Shown here: piece after piece, positions 8,911 through 17,572 of the stretch | Layout of the letters: every line of letters starts with the position of its first letter | Position numbering within the stretch: the first letter of the stretch is position 1 | NCBI GenBank assembly: GCA_003140895.1 | Contig: PLLH01000043.1 | Span: forward strand, 1-57,263 | Source: Elusimicrobiota bacterium | Lineage (GTDB): Bacteria; Elusimicrobiota; Elusimicrobia; F11 | Length of the DNA: 57,263 nucleotides | Direction of reading: 5' to 3' | Translations under genes and position numbers: made by a program | Notes under the pieces: model-generated | What the model saw: the letters and a program-made list of their open reading frames with translations, nothing else | Told to the model about the DNA's origin: nothing | Database searches by the model: none

Positions 8911-10161
8911 CTAGGATTTCTCCGTGAGAACCGTCTTCAAATGAGCAATCATTTTGTCGGAATGAGTTTTAATTTTGTCGACGATCGAGTATTTCCCCGG
9001 GCCCGAAACCAGGTCGTTTCGTGTCTTATGAAAAGCGGCCGGCCATTTTTCGAGCAGCTCCTCTATGACCGCAAACACGGCTCTGGGCCCCACGTTGCCG
9101 TCGGTGGCGAGCTCCTCCCAATGGCGCAGCATGACCCAGTCGGGGCGGTTTTCCCCTCCCACTTTCATCGCTAATTTCTGGGAAATCCCCGGGTATATCG
9201 CCGTTGAAAGCAAATCATAAAAAGGGGCCAGCTTAACGCCGTCTCGAGAGAGAAGCAGCGAAATATTTTTTCCGTGCGCGTCATTATTTCCAATGATGTT
9301 ATTGAACACCAACCATTGTAAGAGCCGCTGTTTGTCGAGAGCGGGCGAGGCCGCGTATTGATCGACGAGAGCAAAACACATTTTTAACGTAGGACCCCCT
9401 TCCGATTCGTACTTCCGATTGGAGCCAAATCCAAGCGCCTGGCAAAAATCTTCCTGATGAAGCCGCGCCAAGTGGCCGCCTTCATCAGTGCGGTCGTAGC
9501 GTTCGGTGAGAAAAAGGGGCATCGGATCCGGCCAAAATTGGGCTTTCGCCGTCGGCAATCCCAAATGCGCGGCGAGCCTCATGCAGAACACCTCGTTCTC
9601 CACGGAATGGTCCACTTTATCGATGGGCGGTTTGAGAATATGCGAACTCGCGCGCGCCCCATGCGGCAGGAAGAATTTATCGTCCTTCATATAAACCGGA
9701 AGCTTGTTTTGGACACCGGCGAGCGAGAGCCGCAAGCCTTCGCCAGGGGACAAAAGCGGGCGTTGCGGCATTTGCTCAATCATTTTGCGGAGACTTTCAG
9801 GGGAAAGCGGCTCATAGAAACCGTCTTGATCGGGTGATTGTCCGGGAAGAAGCAGCGAGAGCGCGCCCGCGCAGTCCCCGCCCAAGGCCTCCAACAGCTT
9901 GAAGTCGTTTCCGACGCTCACGCCCAGGCGTTGCGCGATCAGAGCGCGCACCCCGGTTTCCGGCAGGAGGTTGGAAAAAAAGGGCGCGGCTTTGTTGTTG
10001 AGGAACGGTTCTTTTTGAAGCGGGAGGCTTAAAGAAATCGGCAGGCGCAAAGGGTTGGCCAGCCAGTCCGGGTCATAACGGAAAATGAGGAACCGGTTTT
10101 CGTCCTGCTCAAGATGGCCGACAAGGTGAGATTCCCAATAAACAAATAGTTCCGCGCTCAA
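8911..10161 (-). CDS. hipA: HipA-type Ser/Thr kinase toxin
   Basis: Toxin of a HipAB toxin-antitoxin module. HipA kinases phosphorylate targets such as glutamyl-tRNA synthetase and cause growth arrest. The N-terminal subdomain (APFFSNLLPE) is followed by the kinase core with LSLAGVQNKLPVY, the catalytic loop NNDAHGKNISLLLS and the metal-binding APFYDLLST. At 416 residues it is full length. It starts with TTG overlapping the hipB stop (TTGA), with AAAGGA 8 bases upstream, so it is translationally coupled to the antitoxin. Expression should be governed by HipB binding to the three operators upstream. The target protein cannot be told from sequence. Confidence 0.93.
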   Translation of the reverse strand: MSAELFVYWESHLVGHLEQDENRFLIFRYDPDWLANPLRLPISLSLPLQKEPFLNNKAAPFFSNLLPETGVRALIAQRLGVSVGNDFKLLEALGGDCAGALSLLLPGQSPDQDGFYEPLSPESLRKMIEQMPQRPLLSPGEGLRLSLAGVQNKLPVYMKDDKFFLPHGARASSHILKPPIDKVDHSVENEVFCMRLAAHLGLPTAKAQFWPDPMPLFLTERYDRTDEGGHLARLHQEDFCQALGFGSNRKYESEGGPTLKMCFALVDQYAASPALDKQRLLQWLVFNNIIGNNDAHGKNISLLLSRDGVKLAPFYDLLSTAIYPGISQKLAMKVGGENRPDWVMLRHWEELATDGNVGPRAVFAVIEELLEKWPAAFHKTRNDLVSGPGKYSIVDKIKTHSDKMIAHLKTVLTEKS

Positions 10162-10397
10162 ACCAGCCGTCCTTTCTCGCCCACAAGAAGATTGAGTCCC
10201 AGCCCGTTCAAGACGCTGAAAACTTTCCCCATGTGAAGAGAGGTCTTCCCATTTTCAAGATCAGACAGGAACCGTGTGCCGACTTTGCAAAGGGCGGCCG
10301 CCTCGGCTTGCTTCAAGCCCAATTGGGTCCGCTTGACCTTCACAATCTCACCCAGTTTAACGAAATCGCTAATAATTTGTGTTTTCGAAGTATTCAT
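10158..10397 (-). CDS. hipB: HipB-type antitoxin, Xre-family HTH repressor
   Basis: 79-residue Xre/Cro-type helix-turn-helix protein (LKQAEAAALCKVGTRFLSDLENGKTSLHMGKV covers the recognition region). It neutralises HipA and represses the operon. The last bases overlap the hipA start. Its ATG lies inside operator O1, so bound repressor would cover the start of its own gene. Confidence 0.92.
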   Translation of the reverse strand: MNTSKTQIISDFVKLGEIVKVKRTQLGLKQAEAAALCKVGTRFLSDLENGKTSLHMGKVFSVLNGLGLNLLVGEKGRLV

Positions 10398-10415
10398 ATT
10401 CCCGATCGGTAATAT
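10396..10415. promoter_or_regulatory. hipBA operator O1
   Basis: Near-palindrome ATATTCCCGATCGGTAATAT overlapping the hipB start codon. It is one of three like sites with a CCGATCGG-type core spaced exactly 49 bases centre to centre. Confidence 0.75.
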
Positions 10416-10444
10416 ATAACATAAAAAACAAGTTTTCCAGAGAA

Positions 10445-10464
10445 ATATTCCCGATCGGGAATAA
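10445..10464. promoter_or_regulatory. hipBA operator O2
   Basis: ATATTCCCGATCGGGAATAA contains the perfect 16-bp palindrome ATTCCCGATCGGGAAT. It lies 49 bases from both O1 and O3. The AT-rich stretch between O2 and O1 (10416-10440) is the likely promoter position for minus-strand transcription of hipBA. Confidence 0.78.
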
Positions 10465-10493
10465 ATTAAACAGAAATGAAGAATTTTCCGCCA

Positions 10494-11392: not shown

Positions 11393-12277
11393 TTAGCCTG
11401 GCTTAGTCGCTAAATAATGAATTGCTTTAAGCGGAAGCAAATTCTTTCCTTCTTCATCGATTTTCGAGTAATGCTCGACCCAAAGATCAAACAATTTTTC
11501 AGCATCGATGAACGTCACTTGGCGTTTTTCTTGGCGCCGGGAGCTTTTTGCCGCCTCGGTTGAAAACCCTCCAAGAGAAACATAGACACCCCTATCATTT
11601 TCACCCAAGCAAGAGAGGAATGAAGCAAATTCGCTACTGTCAACCTTCGTATCAATTCGCCGCTTTACCTGAACCTTCATTCTTGGGCCATTAATGCCAA
11701 GGGGATCAGTAAGAGCGACAATATCAATTCCTTCGTCGGGACCCGGCGGAGCAATCCAGTCAATATGGTAACCCATGGCCCGAATAAGAGAAGCAACGAG
11801 CTTTTGAAAGTCGTAGGGGTTCATCGCACCGAGATATTCTTGAATGGTCGACCAAGCAGCCTCTTCCGCTTCCTCGAGGCTACTAATCGCTTGCGCAACA
11901 TCCGATTCGGCTTCCTCGTCATTAGGTTGAGAGAGTTTCCATTCCTGATACAACTCATGCTCTCTTTTCGCCAATTCCTCTGGATCGTGATACTTCGCGA
12001 TGACTTTTCGTCCTTCATCTGTGATAGCCCAAAACCCTTTTGTCTTCGTTATCCAACCGGCTTTCACAGGTCCGATTGAAAAAAACCGTGCAATCTTTTC
12101 GTAACGTCGAATCTTGGGGTGGTTTGGGTAGAAAGCCGCTTCGAAGGGTGTTGGAGGTAGTAGCTTTTCAAGTCGCTTCAAAAGCTCGCTAGCCTGGAGT
12201 GGGCCATCTGCTTTAACTAAAATTTCGAGAGTTGCACGTTGAAATTCACCGCGACGCTTTAGTGTCATTTCCGCCAT
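11393..12277 (-). CDS. mrr: Mrr-type (type IV) restriction endonuclease
   Basis: Endonuclease that cuts modified or foreign DNA. An N-terminal winged-helix Mrr_N domain (residues about 5-100) is followed by a charged linker and a C-terminal Mrr_cat PD-(D/E)XK domain. Catalytic signatures are visible as DEGIDIVA (the Asp) and VQVKRR (Q-x-K). It starts at ATG 12277 with AAGGAG 7 bases upstream; a TTG two codons earlier is less likely. It lies 135 bases downstream of the coupled nuclease/kinase/unknown cassette on the same strand, so it may belong to the same operon. Confidence 0.88.
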   Translation of the reverse strand: MAEMTLKRRGEFQRATLEILVKADGPLQASELLKRLEKLLPPTPFEAAFYPNHPKIRRYEKIARFFSIGPVKAGWITKTKGFWAITDEGRKVIAKYHDPEELAKREHELYQEWKLSQPNDEEAESDVAQAISSLEEAEEAAWSTIQEYLGAMNPYDFQKLVASLIRAMGYHIDWIAPPGPDEGIDIVALTDPLGINGPRMKVQVKRRIDTKVDSSEFASFLSCLGENDRGVYVSLGGFSTEAAKSSRRQEKRQVTFIDAEKLFDLWVEHYSKIDEEGKNLLPLKAIHYLATKPG

Positions 12278-12363
12278 TTTCAATCTCCTTTTCGTCGTCT
12301 TTCTTAATTTAGGATTTAAAATTGCTGTCCGCTGTTGGGGTGATAGTTTTCGACATTTAAAAG

Positions 12364-12412: not shown

Positions 12413-13606
12413 TTAGATCTGGCTTAGGTCAAAGAAATCAAAGTCCCCTTGATTCTCTCTTAACAATTCCTCAAGCGCCGCCTTCCAGTTGGCCTGATAT
12501 GCGCTTGTATTGTCACCTAAAGATTCGATCTTCTGGATGTCCGCATGAAGGCTAATAGCCCTATCCAAAAGGTCGATTGCTGTTTGGGCGTTCTTTCGCG
12601 GGTCCTTTTCTGTGGCCATTGCCGTAAATTGTTTGGCGAGCATGTATACAAGATGCTTACCGGAATCCCAGCGAGACCATGGTAGATTCGAGGTGACCGG
12701 TATAGAAAACGGAGAGAGCGTTAAGACCTGGTCTCGAAGGTTGGGGGGAAGCCGAACTGTTTCGTCTGGATGGATTATAGTACCCCAAAGAGCACTGGAA
12801 AAAAAGCGCGCGGGGGCGTCGCCCCCTCCACCCTGGGATGCAGCCTCCATCCAACGACCGCGCGTAAATTGCCAGAGGTTCTGGCTATGGCCGATGGCGA
12901 CACCGGTGGCTCCAAATCCAAACGACAACAACCCCATCGGACCGGCATAGGCGTGGAGCACAGGCTTACCTGTACATGCAAGGGTCAATCCTGCGACACA
13001 GCATCTTTTTACCGTTTCGCGGACGCTGGGGAGACGCTCTCCTTCGAACTCAAACCCGAAGTACCAACCATCTGAGTTCAACGCCGTTGCATAAGAAAGA
13101 ACAGCCTGTAATGGTTGATCTGCTGAGGTGACAGAGTGGCCGAGAACGATGGTGGCGTATATTGGAAGCTTGAGGTCATTGGCAACACGCTTTGATGCGG
13201 AGAACAAACGAGCGTTCAGCTGAAGAATATCCATCCGCCCCGCCTCGTAAACGACTGCCGGGGCGATAACGGCGTCCGCTTTCATACTTTCGTTGTCGAC
13301 ACGAAGCTCGTTTGTAAAATCAGTTAAATCCTGGTCGGAAATCTTATTGAGAGACGACACCCCTTTTCGAAACCGCGAGATGGGGTATGAATCAAATTTT
13401 GCATTTGTGAACTCAGGATTGTAGTACTGATGGTCAAGTAGAACCTCCGCGCCTAGGGCCTTATAACGTTTTGCATATGCTATAGCATTGTCCCGACTGA
13501 GGTCTCGGGGACTAATGATGACTCCAACCCCAACCTTTTGCGCAAGTTGTTCTTCCACTAGTATCTGGCTACGATCCCCACATTGATGCCACGCTCCGCG
13601 GCGCAT
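12413..13606 (-). CDS. Unknown protein of the kinase/nuclease cassette
   Basis: Not recognised. The 397-residue, soluble product has alternating strands and helices (VGVGVIISPRDLS, AEVLLDHQYYNPEF, PIYATIVLGHSV, KPVLHAYAG) that suggest a TIM-barrel-like fold in the first 270 residues, followed by a helical C-terminal part (about 310-397). It might be an enzyme acting on a nucleotide or tRNA/DNA base; that is a guess from the overall look only. Its ATG overlaps the kinase stop (TGATG) and has GGGAGG 6 bases upstream, so it is translated in step with the kinase. Confidence 0.8.
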   Translation of the reverse strand: MRRGAWHQCGDRSQILVEEQLAQKVGVGVIISPRDLSRDNAIAYAKRYKALGAEVLLDHQYYNPEFTNAKFDSYPISRFRKGVSSLNKISDQDLTDFTNELRVDNESMKADAVIAPAVVYEAGRMDILQLNARLFSASKRVANDLKLPIYATIVLGHSVTSADQPLQAVLSYATALNSDGWYFGFEFEGERLPSVRETVKRCCVAGLTLACTGKPVLHAYAGPMGLLSFGFGATGVAIGHSQNLWQFTRGRWMEAASQGGGGDAPARFFSSALWGTIIHPDETVRLPPNLRDQVLTLSPFSIPVTSNLPWSRWDSGKHLVYMLAKQFTAMATEKDPRKNAQTAIDLLDRAISLHADIQKIESLGDNTSAYQANWKAALEELLRENQGDFDFFDLSQI

Positions 13607-14463
13607 CAGAGGCCTCCCATCTTTCTAAGAATCGCACCGACTTGTCGAGCATCAGACGGTCGTTTGACCCGTTCTTTCTCCAATAGTCGAGTGAGAAGAA
13701 TTTTCCAATTCTGACCAAGCCCTTGAAAGGACGACTTTGTTAAGTGGACGGTCGATTCGCAGACTGCCTGGCGAAGCTGGCTTTCCGTCCTTATCGTCTT
13801 GGGATCATAAAAAGGGGACTCACCAGTAAGGGCCTCATAGAGCAGAATACCGAACGCAAATAGATCCGTGCGATGGTCGATGTCGTGTTTGGTGCCGTCA
13901 AACTGTTCGGGGGCAAAGTATCGAGGTGTTCCTATAGCCGCACCAGCGATCGTTTGAGTCAGGGCAGGAAGCTTAAGGTGACGAGCGAGACCAAAATCGA
14001 TGATTACAGGAGATCCACTGGGTCTTACGCGAATATTGGCGGGCTTCATGTCGCGATGAACGATCTCTTGTTCTTTCAAGGCGGACAGTCCATCACTGAG
14101 ACTAGAAAAGAATTCTACTACATACTTGATAAGCAACGGCTTCTCCGAAATCAACAAGTCCTGAAAATCTTGACCTTCGACGAACTCCTCGACAATATAG
14201 TGGCGCTGTTGGCCCGGTTTCGATGAAAACGTGTATTCAATGAGCTTAACGACGTTAGGATGGTTGATCGCCTGTAGGGCCAAAATCTCTCGGTCGAACC
14301 GGTCGCGCTCATAGTTGGGAGATATCAGCTTGAGGCATAGGTCGGCCCCAGATTTGTCCTTCACATGAAAAGCCGCTTTCTGTTCACTTGGGGTTAATGC
14401 CCGGACGAAAGAATAGTCTGGGAAGTTCTTCTCCGCATCCTTGATGTCAACGACATAGGCCAT
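13606..14463 (-). CDS. Hanks-type Ser/Thr protein kinase
   Basis: Cytoplasmic eukaryotic-like kinase of 285 residues with no membrane or sensor domain. Visible elements are a beta-3 Lys (LCLKL, K45), the alpha-C Glu (REIL, E59), catalytic loop HRDMKPANI (H136-I144), IDFGLA (D156) and the activation segment GTPRYFAPEQ. The glycine-rich loop is poorly conserved. The start at 14463 is chosen because its ATG overlaps the stop of the preceding nuclease-like gene (TAATG). The tight coupling to a nuclease-like and an unknown protein suggests these are its partners or substrates. Confidence 0.92.
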   Translation of the reverse strand: MAYVVDIKDAEKNFPDYSFVRALTPSEQKAAFHVKDKSGADLCLKLISPNYERDRFDREILALQAINHPNVVKLIEYTFSSKPGQQRHYIVEEFVEGQDFQDLLISEKPLLIKYVVEFFSSLSDGLSALKEQEIVHRDMKPANIRVRPSGSPVIIDFGLARHLKLPALTQTIAGAAIGTPRYFAPEQFDGTKHDIDHRTDLFAFGILLYEALTGESPFYDPKTIRTESQLRQAVCESTVHLTKSSFQGLGQNWKILLTRLLEKERVKRPSDARQVGAILRKMGGL

Positions 14464-15164
14464 TAGTTTGCGCGATTCCGAGCAAGAAGGGATGCGAGCT
14501 GGTAGTAATATGTCCAAACAGTAGGCTGGCTGCGCCGGGGCTTTCTTGCAATAGTTGCCGTGCCGTCATCGGATACGGAAATTAATCCGATGCCGATTTT
14601 TCCAAACACGAATTCCTTGCGAACGCGCTGAGCCACTTTCTCTGGCAATGCAACAAATGATAGATGTGCAAAAATCCTATTTCGGGCCGCTTGCTCGACT
14701 GCCCTTTGCCAGTTTGAAACCTTTACTTCAATGGTGATTATTTCTGGGAGAATCTGCCTCCAAGGCGGCGAAAGCGAAAAACTATTGGCCGACGTTTCAA
14801 TCGCTGCCGCATCCACAAGACAGGCAAGCCGGTCACTCAGTTTTCTTGGAGATGTGCCCATTCTCTGCGCAATCGTCTCTAGCCGAGCTTTGCCGACTGC
14901 TCGAAGGTAGGCAAGAATTTGGGCATCGGAAATTTCGATATTCGCCAGAGCGAAAACCTGGGGGTTGTACGAGACCAAGACAAGATCTGGGATACCCGCG
15001 CCAATTGGAATGGACGCGGCGGCCCACGAGTGCACGCCCGGGCAAAAGAGTTCTGGAATTTGGTCAGCGACGATGTCCTGCATAAGGGCCTCGGGCCCTT
15101 GACGACGTGGGCGGAACTGGGTCACTGCAATTGAGTCTATGGTCGGTGGCATTGAACATAGCAT
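14463..15164 (-). CDS. PD-(D/E)XK nuclease-like protein with inserted winged helix
   Basis: I read this as a restriction-endonuclease-fold protein. A first helix (EALMQDIVADQIPELF) and strand lead to GIPDLVLV (Asp60); further on, ITIEVKV gives Glu146 and Lys148, completing PD...ExK. Between them, residues about 78-135 look like a winged helix (AQILAYLRAVGKARLETIAQRM). That arrangement would couple DNA recognition to cleavage. It is the first gene of the three-gene coupled cassette. A GGAG lies 10 bases before the ATG; a second Met at residue 5 is also possible. The family name is not known to me. Confidence 0.75.
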   Translation of the reverse strand: MLCSMPPTIDSIAVTQFRPRRQGPEALMQDIVADQIPELFCPGVHSWAAASIPIGAGIPDLVLVSYNPQVFALANIEISDAQILAYLRAVGKARLETIAQRMGTSPRKLSDRLACLVDAAAIETSANSFSLSPPWRQILPEIITIEVKVSNWQRAVEQAARNRIFAHLSFVALPEKVAQRVRKEFVFGKIGIGLISVSDDGTATIARKPRRSQPTVWTYYYQLASLLARNRAN

Positions 15165-15322: not shown

Positions 15323-15412
15323 TTAGAACCAGGAACGGCTGGGGGTGGGCGATATTTTCTGGCGGTTGGTGTTTTTGGTGAGGCGGAATAAATTTTTATT
15401 CAGGCGGCGGGG
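15323..15412 (-). pseudogene. Remnant of the C-terminal tail of the 16217-17572 hydrolase
   Basis: In one minus-strand frame this stretch encodes RRLNKNLFRLTKNTNRQKIS followed by PTPSR and a stop at 15323. The intact hydrolase ends with RRKLNKNLFRLTKNTHRQKI followed by STTPSR. Most DNA differences are synonymous (for example AAC/AAT, CTA/TTA, AGA/CGC, CAA/CAG), so the copy diverged while still under protein-level selection. Its own upstream frame is closed by TAA at 15427-15425. It is the relic of a second paralogue, now separated from the intact gene by the outer-membrane protein gene. Confidence 0.75.
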
Positions 15413-15432
15413 AAGGGAGGGTTTTTATAGAG

Positions 15433-15484: not shown

Positions 15485-16057
15485 TTAGAAATTCCAGCCG
15501 GCGAAGAGGCCCCAGTGCCATCCTCCCGCCTGGATTTTATCGCCGTTGATTTCCGTTTCCGCCTGGGAATAACGGACATCGGCGCCAACGTTTAATGCTT
15601 TTATCGGATTAAATTTGACGCCTCCGTCAATCCAAGGGCCGATTTGTGAAGCGGAAGAGGAATTGTCTCCCGAACTCATTTCCGCCGTGATATTGGCCAG
15701 TCCTCCGCCCACATAAGGCTTCACCAATTGGTCTTCCCTAAAATATTTCCGAACACCCAAGGCAAATTCAGATGTTTTTCCATCGACGTCTCTCCCGTGA
15801 ATGGTTACGGTTTTTTTGGAGCTCAGCAAGTCAAGCGCGATATTGACGGGCCACGATTTCTCCCGAATATCAAACATGATCCCCGCCTCGAATTGCTTTG
15901 ACCAATCCGCCCCGCCTTCCGTGGTCCAATCTCTCTCGGACAAGATCTTCTCTCCGAGAAGCAGATTCAGATTTCCCGTGACCTCCGCGGCGCGCGCTTT
16001 TGAACCAACCAAAACGCAGGACGCGATCAGCATACACACCATAACAGTTCGTTTCAT
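15485..16057 (-). CDS. Outer-membrane beta-barrel protein
   Basis: 190-residue exported protein: signal peptide of about 23 residues ending ARA-A, then amphipathic beta strands and a C-terminal aromatic (GLFAGWNF), the typical outer-membrane insertion signal. The pattern KPYVGGGLANI and NVGADVRYSQ fits the OmpW/OmpA-like 8-stranded barrel group. The precise role is unknown; such barrels are often small porins or adhesins. It has its own spacer upstream and a hairpin downstream, so it is probably monocistronic. Confidence 0.75.
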   Translation of the reverse strand: MKRTVMVCMLIASCVLVGSKARAAEVTGNLNLLLGEKILSERDWTTEGGADWSKQFEAGIMFDIREKSWPVNIALDLLSSKKTVTIHGRDVDGKTSEFALGVRKYFREDQLVKPYVGGGLANITAEMSSGDNSSSASQIGPWIDGGVKFNPIKALNVGADVRYSQAETEINGDKIQAGGWHWGLFAGWNF

Positions 16058-16216: not shown

Positions 16217-17572
16217 CTAGGATTCGAGCCTAAACTCCTCGGTTAAGATCGTTTCGCGGCTGGGGGTGGTCGATATTTTTTGGCGGTGGGTGTTTTTGGT
16301 GAGTCTAAATAGGTTTTTGTTGAGTTTGCGGCGGAGAACAACTTCGATCAGCGTGGTTTGATTGGGTTTGACGAGCGTTCCGACGGCATTCTTGGGGCCT
16401 TGGAACGTCAAATCTTCATATGAGACGAGCGGTGAGGCCGAAGGCGCGTGGACGGTGAACCCCAATTTCCCCTCCCGGAGTTCGGTGAGCTGGTCAAAGT
16501 TCAGATAAAAAGAAAAATAATCCGGGTGGGTTGTGTTTTTGTGCTGATGTTCCAAAAACCGCATCGGAAGACGATCGCCCCGGCCTTCGGAATCAATCCA
16601 TTCAATGGCGTAATCGCTCAACCCATTCCCTTGATCGTCCACCACGTGAAAAACAACCTGAGAGTAACGGTCGAGCTTTGTTCGGTCGTGATAAACGTCG
16701 TCTATTTGAAGGGCGTGCGTGCGCGCGGCAAACTCTGCTTCGAGCTTTTCATACGACCGAAGGGTGCTGACCTGTAACGCGGCTTTAATAGCGCTCAACA
16801 CGGTGTGCTCTTTTTTGGGGGAAGCGGGGATTCCTTCCACAATGCCGTACGGAATATCACCATGCGACGTTTTGGGAGCAATAAGGAACGGAACGTTTTC
16901 AATTTTTCCGGTGGAACGGATTCCTTTCGCATCAACAACGACCTTCTGCATGTTGAGGTTGGCTGCGGAGGCGCGAACCGTGCCATCAGACCCTTTCTCA
17001 TACGACGCCGGAACAAGCACGTCGCAATAGCGGATATCAATCCACTGGCCCGTGATCACAAACGGATAGAAACCCGGGAGTTGATGGGTTTTCTTTTTCA
17101 TCCAGACCGAATTGATGTTCCACTCGAAGGGGCTGGCGAGCTGAAGGGCGTTTAAGATATGAACGCCGGGCTCAACTCCTAGTCGCGCGCGGAAGCGGCT
17201 CATTTTGGCTTTGCTGACAGAAGCGAGCCGGGAGCCGTTGTTGGGAGGCGAGAGCATGACCAGGTGGGTCATCGGGTTCCTCCGGCCCATCTTGGCGCCA
17301 TAGGAATCAACCCAGGCGCGCGCGATCATGCCGCCGGTCGAATGCGTGATGCAGGCAAACTTCTTCTTCCCCCACGACGCGCCGTACAAATCACGGAGGG
17401 CACCGTTAAACCCCAGAATGAGATCCTGGACGGTCACGGAGTCGTCCAACGTGACGTACTTCGCCAGATGGAGATGCTTAACGCCAATCCCGAGGGACTT
17501 CAACCGCGCGGGCAGATGCCCGTAGGTTTTGGTGGAGGTGACGTTATAGCCGTGAAGAAGAAGGACGTCCAT
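16217..17572 (-). CDS. Alpha/beta-hydrolase (lipase/esterase-like) with C-terminal extension
   Basis: Serine hydrolase. LLHGYN near the N-terminus forms the oxyanion region. The nucleophile elbow is THSTGG (Ser near residue 88), a variant of GHSxGG. An Asp in KGSDGTV and a His in SHGDIP complete a likely triad. Residues about 290-451 form a beta-rich extension ending in the very basic RRKLNKNLFRLTKNT tail. There is no signal peptide. It follows csgG by 9 bases, so it is the last gene of the lipoprotein operon. A decayed copy of its tail lies at 15323-15412. The substrate is unknown. Confidence 0.82.
   Translation of the reverse strand: MDVLLLHGYNVTSTKTYGHLPARLKSLGIGVKHLHLAKYVTLDDSVTVQDLILGFNGALRDLYGASWGKKKFACITHSTGGMIARAWVDSYGAKMGRRNPMTHLVMLSPPNNGSRLASVSKAKMSRFRARLGVEPGVHILNALQLASPFEWNINSVWMKKKTHQLPGFYPFVITGQWIDIRYCDVLVPASYEKGSDGTVRASAANLNMQKVVVDAKGIRSTGKIENVPFLIAPKTSHGDIPYGIVEGIPASPKKEHTVLSAIKAALQVSTLRSYEKLEAEFAARTHALQIDDVYHDRTKLDRYSQVVFHVVDDQGNGLSDYAIEWIDSEGRGDRLPMRFLEHQHKNTTHPDYFSFYLNFDQLTELREGKLGFTVHAPSASPLVSYEDLTFQGPKNAVGTLVKPNQTTLIEVVLRRKLNKNLFRLTKNTHRQKISTTPSRETILTEEFRLES

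Follow-up and report, generated by a model that had tools for sequence, protein, structure and literature searches.

The three-gene locus and its surroundings

The window analysed here, a stretch of 57,263 nucleotides on contig PLLH01000043.1 of an Elusimicrobiota bacterium (assembly GCA_003140895.1), carries on its minus strand three contiguous genes, designated A, B and C, together with neighbouring mrr and hipBA genes:

14463..15164, minus strand: gene A, predicted PD-(D/E)XK-type nuclease, 233 aa (motif and model topology)
13606..14463, minus strand: gene B, predicted soluble Hanks-type Ser/Thr kinase, 285 aa (Pfam Pkinase)
12413..13606, minus strand: gene C, putative TGT-like TIM barrel, 397 aa (predicted model, PDB fold matches)
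11393..12283, minus strand: Mrr-type restriction endonuclease (Mrr_N and Mrr_cat), neighbour outside the unit (domain matches)
8911..10161, minus strand: HipA-type kinase toxin, neighbour outside the unit (domain match)
10158..10397, minus strand: HipB-like helix-turn-helix frame, 80 codons, overlapping hipA, outside the unit (frame reading)

The A/B and B/C junctions are AACTAATGGCC and CTCTGATGCGC, in which the start codons of B and C each have one base in common with the stop codon of the previous gene (TAATG and TGATG), as an earlier, sequence-only reading of this DNA had reported. Translation of B probably begins at the ATG at 14463, and a longer frame from a TTG, extending to 14517, is just a mechanical reading; the cassette has a G+C content of 0.49-0.50 vs 0.54-0.58 in much of the window. 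One-base overlaps alone are ordinary operon structure; it is the recurrence of the trio that exceeds chance. The further proposal that strict coupling imposes a fixed stoichiometry finds no support in the relatives, whose junctions (with starts picked by eye) mostly range from a 59-base overlap to an 84-base gap. The mrr and hipBA neighbours, which had been counted toward a defence or stress pattern, are present in the window but lack recurrence at relatives and carry little weight on their own; we rejected both as parts of the system because neither recurs among the top 25 neighbour families listed per tally.

Two repeats lie outside the cassette. Just upstream of hipB, at 10396-10481, are two 37-base repeats with TATTCCCGATCGGGAATA-like palindromes, likely to be HipB operators. 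An 80-base direct repeat (15336-15415 and 16257-16336, 81% identical) flanks an outer-membrane-protein gene at 15485-16057, and one of its copies forms the 3' end of a lipase-like gene at 16217-17572.

Genes A and B encode a predicted nuclease and a predicted kinase

The product of gene B matches the Pfam Pkinase family at E 3.9e-38 and possesses the VAIK Lys, HRD Asp, DFG Asp and APE Glu expected of Hanks-type enzymes; among 24 relatives, K45, E59, the HRD at 136-138, K140, N143, D156, G158 and E186 are invariant. This match and the full catalytic residue set bear out its initial description as a soluble Hanks-type Ser/Thr kinase, and B is predicted to be an intact soluble enzyme. From the kinase domain alone, PADLOC labels it PD-T4-6 or Mad6.

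Assignment of A as a PD-(D/E)XK-type nuclease depends on motif and predicted topology. The motif residues are E25, D60, E146-x-K148 and Q158. All 24 relatives of A have E146, K148 and Q158, while E25 and D60 are nearly invariant among them. In the model (pLDDT 92.9), a helix leads into two strands, the second of which bears D60; these are followed by a winged helix at approximately residues 78-131, the ExK strand, a Q-bearing helix and one more strand. This order of secondary-structure elements, together with the catalytic E, D, ExK and Q, is that of the PD-(D/E)XK superfamily and agrees with the earlier recognition of such a nuclease with an inserted winged helix. A fold search with the model returned winged-helix matches only and no nuclease fold, the insert probably masking the nuclease core. 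Family libraries yielded just a weak helix-turn-helix match in A, and a PDB sequence search with A and C found nothing significant. Nucleases without the winged-helix insert occur in Polaromonas, in a second Planctomycetota copy and in the sister operons described below. A stand-alone haloarchaeal relative of A (L053:7973-8608, G325; E 8e-23) is encoded without B or C, and its ExK motif seems degraded (VQVYSGDW).

Gene C encodes a putative relative of tRNA-guanine transglycosylases

No match to C was found in Pfam, PADLOC or PHROG and nothing significant in NCBIfam, and weak single-member family-library matches were disregarded. Modelling and fold comparison had been suggested for this 397-residue protein by the sequence-only reading. 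The model (pLDDT 88.5, pTM 0.91) shows a TIM barrel followed by helices at the C terminus, and tRNA-guanine transglycosylases (TGTs) account for its top 41 PDB fold matches, the best with E 2.9e-6, probability 1.00, TM 0.51/0.56 and 13% identity over ~390 columns; the first non-TGT match, pyruvate kinase, follows at 6.6e-5. A search of a viral structure library with C gave weak generic barrels and nothing more. A direct profile comparison of C with TGT is collinear and weak (E 0.11); in this alignment the invariant D58 of C is paired with the DSGG-motif Asp of TGT, and by this weak match and the alignment of strands the segment GVAIGHSQN, which contains no Asp, lies opposite the TGT nucleophile. 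The TGT zinc site, CxCxxC..H, is absent in 24/24 C proteins.

A bridging family, termed C', connects these observations. C and C' are homologous at 98.7% probability (E 2.3e-16, 369 columns), and CxCxxC is found in 5/6 aligned C' proteins, as well as in the C' of locus L106; the motif lines up with the zinc cysteines of TGT. From the sequence comparisons and the predicted fold, a TGT origin is most likely for C, and the sequences indicate that the protein most likely no longer has the zinc site and probably no longer acts as a transglycosylase. Given the top 41 fold matches and a sister family with the TGT zinc motif, a generic TIM barrel is less likely. The earlier reading had also allowed that the protein might be a known metabolic enzyme. 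It is instead a divergent TGT-fold protein, and we rejected a housekeeping Tgt, since an ordinary Tgt is encoded separately in 9/9 genomes tested. The invariant residues of C (Q8, G10, S32, P33, D58, Q60, Y62, P116 and N243) map in the model to the C-terminal ends of the barrel strands, the expected place of a ligand pocket.

At four loci (L015, L016, L021 and L023) the C frame extends upstream, and a start ~80 bases before C looks much like that of C (MELYLHVGM, followed by MELYLQFGYGM at C); it could belong to a leader peptide or have arisen by a small duplication.

The trio is a conserved and mobile unit

Searches with C recovered relatives on plasmids, on a viral contig and at 19 sites among the GTDB genomes. 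At these C-seeded loci B and A lie directly upstream of C with order and strand kept, save at L020, whose contig starts inside B. As a guard against the bias of a C seed, A alone was also used as the query, against 244 haloarchaeal genomes. The strong full-length matches (E 2e-45 or better) numbered 8, all of which adjoin B and C, and an independent C search of the same genomes identified the identical 8; next to weaker A-like haloarchaeal matches, neither B nor C occurred in the flanking stretch examined. At two further loci B-C is intact and A is convergent on the opposite strand. Taking all of these together, the three genes are present at 29/30 distinct loci carrying C, L020 being the lone exception. 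Distance-matrix correlations over 22 loci were 0.858 for A-B, 0.910 for A-C and 0.920 for B-C, values attained by 0/9999 permutations. The question of whether the three genes keep company across genomes, on which the cassette proposal had been made to hinge, is thus answered by their being found together and not apart (29/30 loci; 8/244 haloarchaea): A-B-C shows the pattern of a co-inherited, horizontally moving unit.

The trio occurs in at least ten lineages of bacteria and archaea, and on plasmids and two viral contigs. Proteobacterial hosts comprise Alphaproteobacteria, a Gammaproteobacteria MAG and Polaromonas (Betaproteobacteria); other bacterial hosts are an Actinomycetes MAG, Acidobacteria, Nannocystis (Myxococcota), Marinifilum (Bacteroidota), Planctomycetota, Desulfosarcina and Clostridiales, and the archaeal hosts are haloarchaea. 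The cassette is rare, occurring in 1/295 genomes of the window's phylum, in the 8 haloarchaea above and in 1/240 genomes of the Bradyrhizobium class, that one being the seed, and searches of E. coli genomes and phage records gave no match. In some carriers it is disrupted by a frameshift or insertion. In Nannocystis (L016:6574-9033) an insertion resembling an IS630-type transposase gene splits gene A, while B and C stay open.

Sister operons exchange the kinase for another partner

C' is encoded in Planctomycetota, on the Arthrobacter plasmid pSI-1 and the Haloarcula plasmid pNG400, and in other genomes. Flanking sequence is available for seven C' loci (L093, L094 and L101-L105); in these, a Panacea/SocA-like gene is followed, in some arrangements via a membrane gene, by a gene for a small nuclease, A', and then by C'; no kinase gene was found at these seven loci. 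There are no PADLOC models for A' or C', one weak match aside, and identification of the sister operon with the PADLOC candidate PDC-M19 is not supported, the Panacea domain matching and A' and C' not. With a kinase in the trio and Panacea in the sister operons, the nuclease and barrel therefore appear as a constant pair, and the kinase and Panacea as exchangeable partners. This swap suggests that the role of the kinase is control of a dangerous effector.

At L106:2051-3580 (minus strand), a kinase C-lobe and C' form a single in-frame fusion, and a winged-helix A adjoins it; the fusion has no kinase N-lobe and may be a remnant. In 6/8 haloarchaeal cassettes (L012, L046, L047, L048, L049 and L051), C is directly followed by a gene for a metallophosphatase of 228-242 aa, a natural counterpart to kinase B that possibly reverses its action.

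Association with defence genes and mobile elements

Defence genes and mobile elements accompany a subset of the loci. One Planctomycetota trio (L092) directly follows PglX, PglZ and BrxL of a BREX system (PADLOC E 2.4e-225, 1.5e-258 and 4.4e-287); the combination of PglZ and PglX in one operon, which identifies BREX, is found at this relative and not in the window. A C' operon (L093) lies upstream of type I restriction genes, a Bradyrhizobium plasmid copy is near SAVED-domain and Fic genes, a Natribaculum copy is near a type IIG-like enzyme, and on two viral contigs the trio is beside lysis- or tail-type genes. Defence families among the neighbours include type I and IIG restriction, AbiE, a DISARM methylase and Mrr, and phage-type integrases make up five of the neighbours tallied. 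Across the loci, 116 neighbour proteins matched 196 PADLOC models at E<=1e-10 vs 72 for 116 frames taken at arbitrary positions of those genomes, a rough enrichment in that the models include generic helicases and kinases; one UvrD-type helicase is behind many of the control matches. At several loci, none of the neighbours is recognisable as a defence gene. The anti-phage or stress pattern first proposed for the window therefore stands in part, carried by the defence and mobile context in a subset of relatives and not by mrr and hipBA, which do not recur. This context supports a defence role, short of proof.

Proposed function and alternative explanations

On balance we consider it probable, with a good deal of room for doubt, that A, B and C constitute one mobile anti-invader module in which C provides recognition, A is the effector and B exerts control; the defence role itself we infer from genomic context. 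As a sensor, the TGT-derived barrel C would detect either a nucleotide signal or some feature of the nucleobases in the DNA or RNA of an invader. A would be the nuclease effector, brought onto DNA by its winged helix and probably also by C. B, we infer, would phosphorylate A, C or both, thereby acting as a checkpoint between resting and active states and setting the threshold for activation. In the sister operons, the Panacea antitoxin-domain protein would probably take over this controlling job.

The alternative with the strongest claim, although we think it unlikely, is a toxin-antitoxin-style maintenance module, in which A, alone or with C, would be a toxic nuclease neutralised through phosphorylation by B, and whose chief service would be the keeping of plasmids and islands, with any effect on phages secondary. 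Kinase antitoxins do neutralise toxins by phosphorylation, as in the type VII TakA-TglT system. Coupled genes on plasmids, the substitution of a Panacea antitoxin-domain gene for the kinase in sister operons and the adjoining hipBA in the window are all in keeping with such a module, but three conserved genes, one encoding a TGT-derived barrel, go beyond the usual two-gene design, the trio is also chromosomal and found inside a BREX operon, and the nuclease gene precedes that of the kinase, although in toxin-antitoxin operons it is often the antitoxin gene that leads.

Within the anti-invader module that we prefer, a more specific and quite speculative version, which we would not expect to hold, is that C is a TGT barrel changed from a writer of bases to a reader, binding unusual bases in phage DNA (e.g. 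7-deazaguanines) in its ancestral base pocket and directing the winged-helix nuclease A, with the kinase or Panacea protein as a safety switch. If true, reader-type C proteins would define a new class of modification-dependent immunity common to bacteria and archaea.

The converse arrangement, resembling restriction-modification of the Dpd type, is improbable. Here C would swap a base in host DNA as a mark of self, A would cut unmarked DNA and B would regulate the process. The TGT-like fold of C fits, and TGT homologues do modify DNA in Dpd systems (PMC12839542), but C has no Asp at the segment of the TGT nucleophile and no zinc motif, and Dpd or deazaguanine-synthesis genes are not recurrent among the neighbour families listed. 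Least plausible of all, and very improbable in our estimation, is a regulated DNA/RNA repair or stress module devoid of an immune role: repair could employ a nuclease and a kinase together with a barrel that recognises bases, and some loci have no recognisable defence neighbour, but the cassette is rare, scattered over domains, plasmids and viral contigs, missing from 294/295 genomes of the window's phylum and broken by a frameshift or insertion in some carriers.

Comparison with known systems

Several known systems have individual features of the trio. A single-gene kinase defence, PD-T4-6, provides the best-scoring PADLOC models for the B kinase domain (7e-52), but the match is to the kinase domain, and B always accompanies A and C at the loci examined. 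One copy of the trio is attached to a BREX operon and most are not. With Tgt, C has in common a barrel fold over the whole protein and the Asp ending strand 3, and the sister C' keeps CxCxxC, but C is only 13% identical, has no DSGGFQ or zinc site and apparently has no nucleophile Asp. With Panacea (PanA/SocA-like) toxin-antitoxin operons, the common ground lies in the sister Panacea - A' - C' operons, which have the trio's nuclease and barrel families; the window operon differs in having a kinase and no Panacea gene.

TGT homologues are also found in DNA-targeting defence in Dpd (DpdA) and BREX-Related Capture (BRC) systems (PMC12839542), a setting that resembles the one proposed here. However, no DpdB/DpdC, HerA, GNAT or DUF6079 partners were seen beside the trio, DpdB/DpdC and deazaguanine genes are not among the top 25 families listed per tally for the 116 neighbours, and, besides C being without the zinc motif and apparently the nucleophile Asp, the trio has a kinase and a small nuclease instead. 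PglW of type 2 BREX and DndF are fusions of a NERD nuclease and a Ser/Thr/Tyr kinase (PMC12839542), and like the trio they pair a nuclease with a protein kinase within a defence operon. In the trio, however, these are separate small proteins of other families, joined by a TGT-like third protein; the nuclease has a winged-helix insert and no NERD match, and there is one active kinase.

Searches of the libraries and of the openly available part of the literature turned up no named system built from such components, and A-B-C is apparently undescribed as a system, while its principle, a nuclease effector with a regulator and a recognition subunit, is already known. Two of the three families are unmatched in Pfam, NCBIfam and PADLOC, and current tools report a lone kinase at best. 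A compact unit found from haloarchaea to Planctomycetota and Clostridiales is thus a candidate missing defence system, one that joins a TGT-derived protein to a nuclease outside Dpd and BRC. By analogy, PglW and DndF, together with the kinase antitoxins, would be the closest parallels to the mechanism proposed for it.
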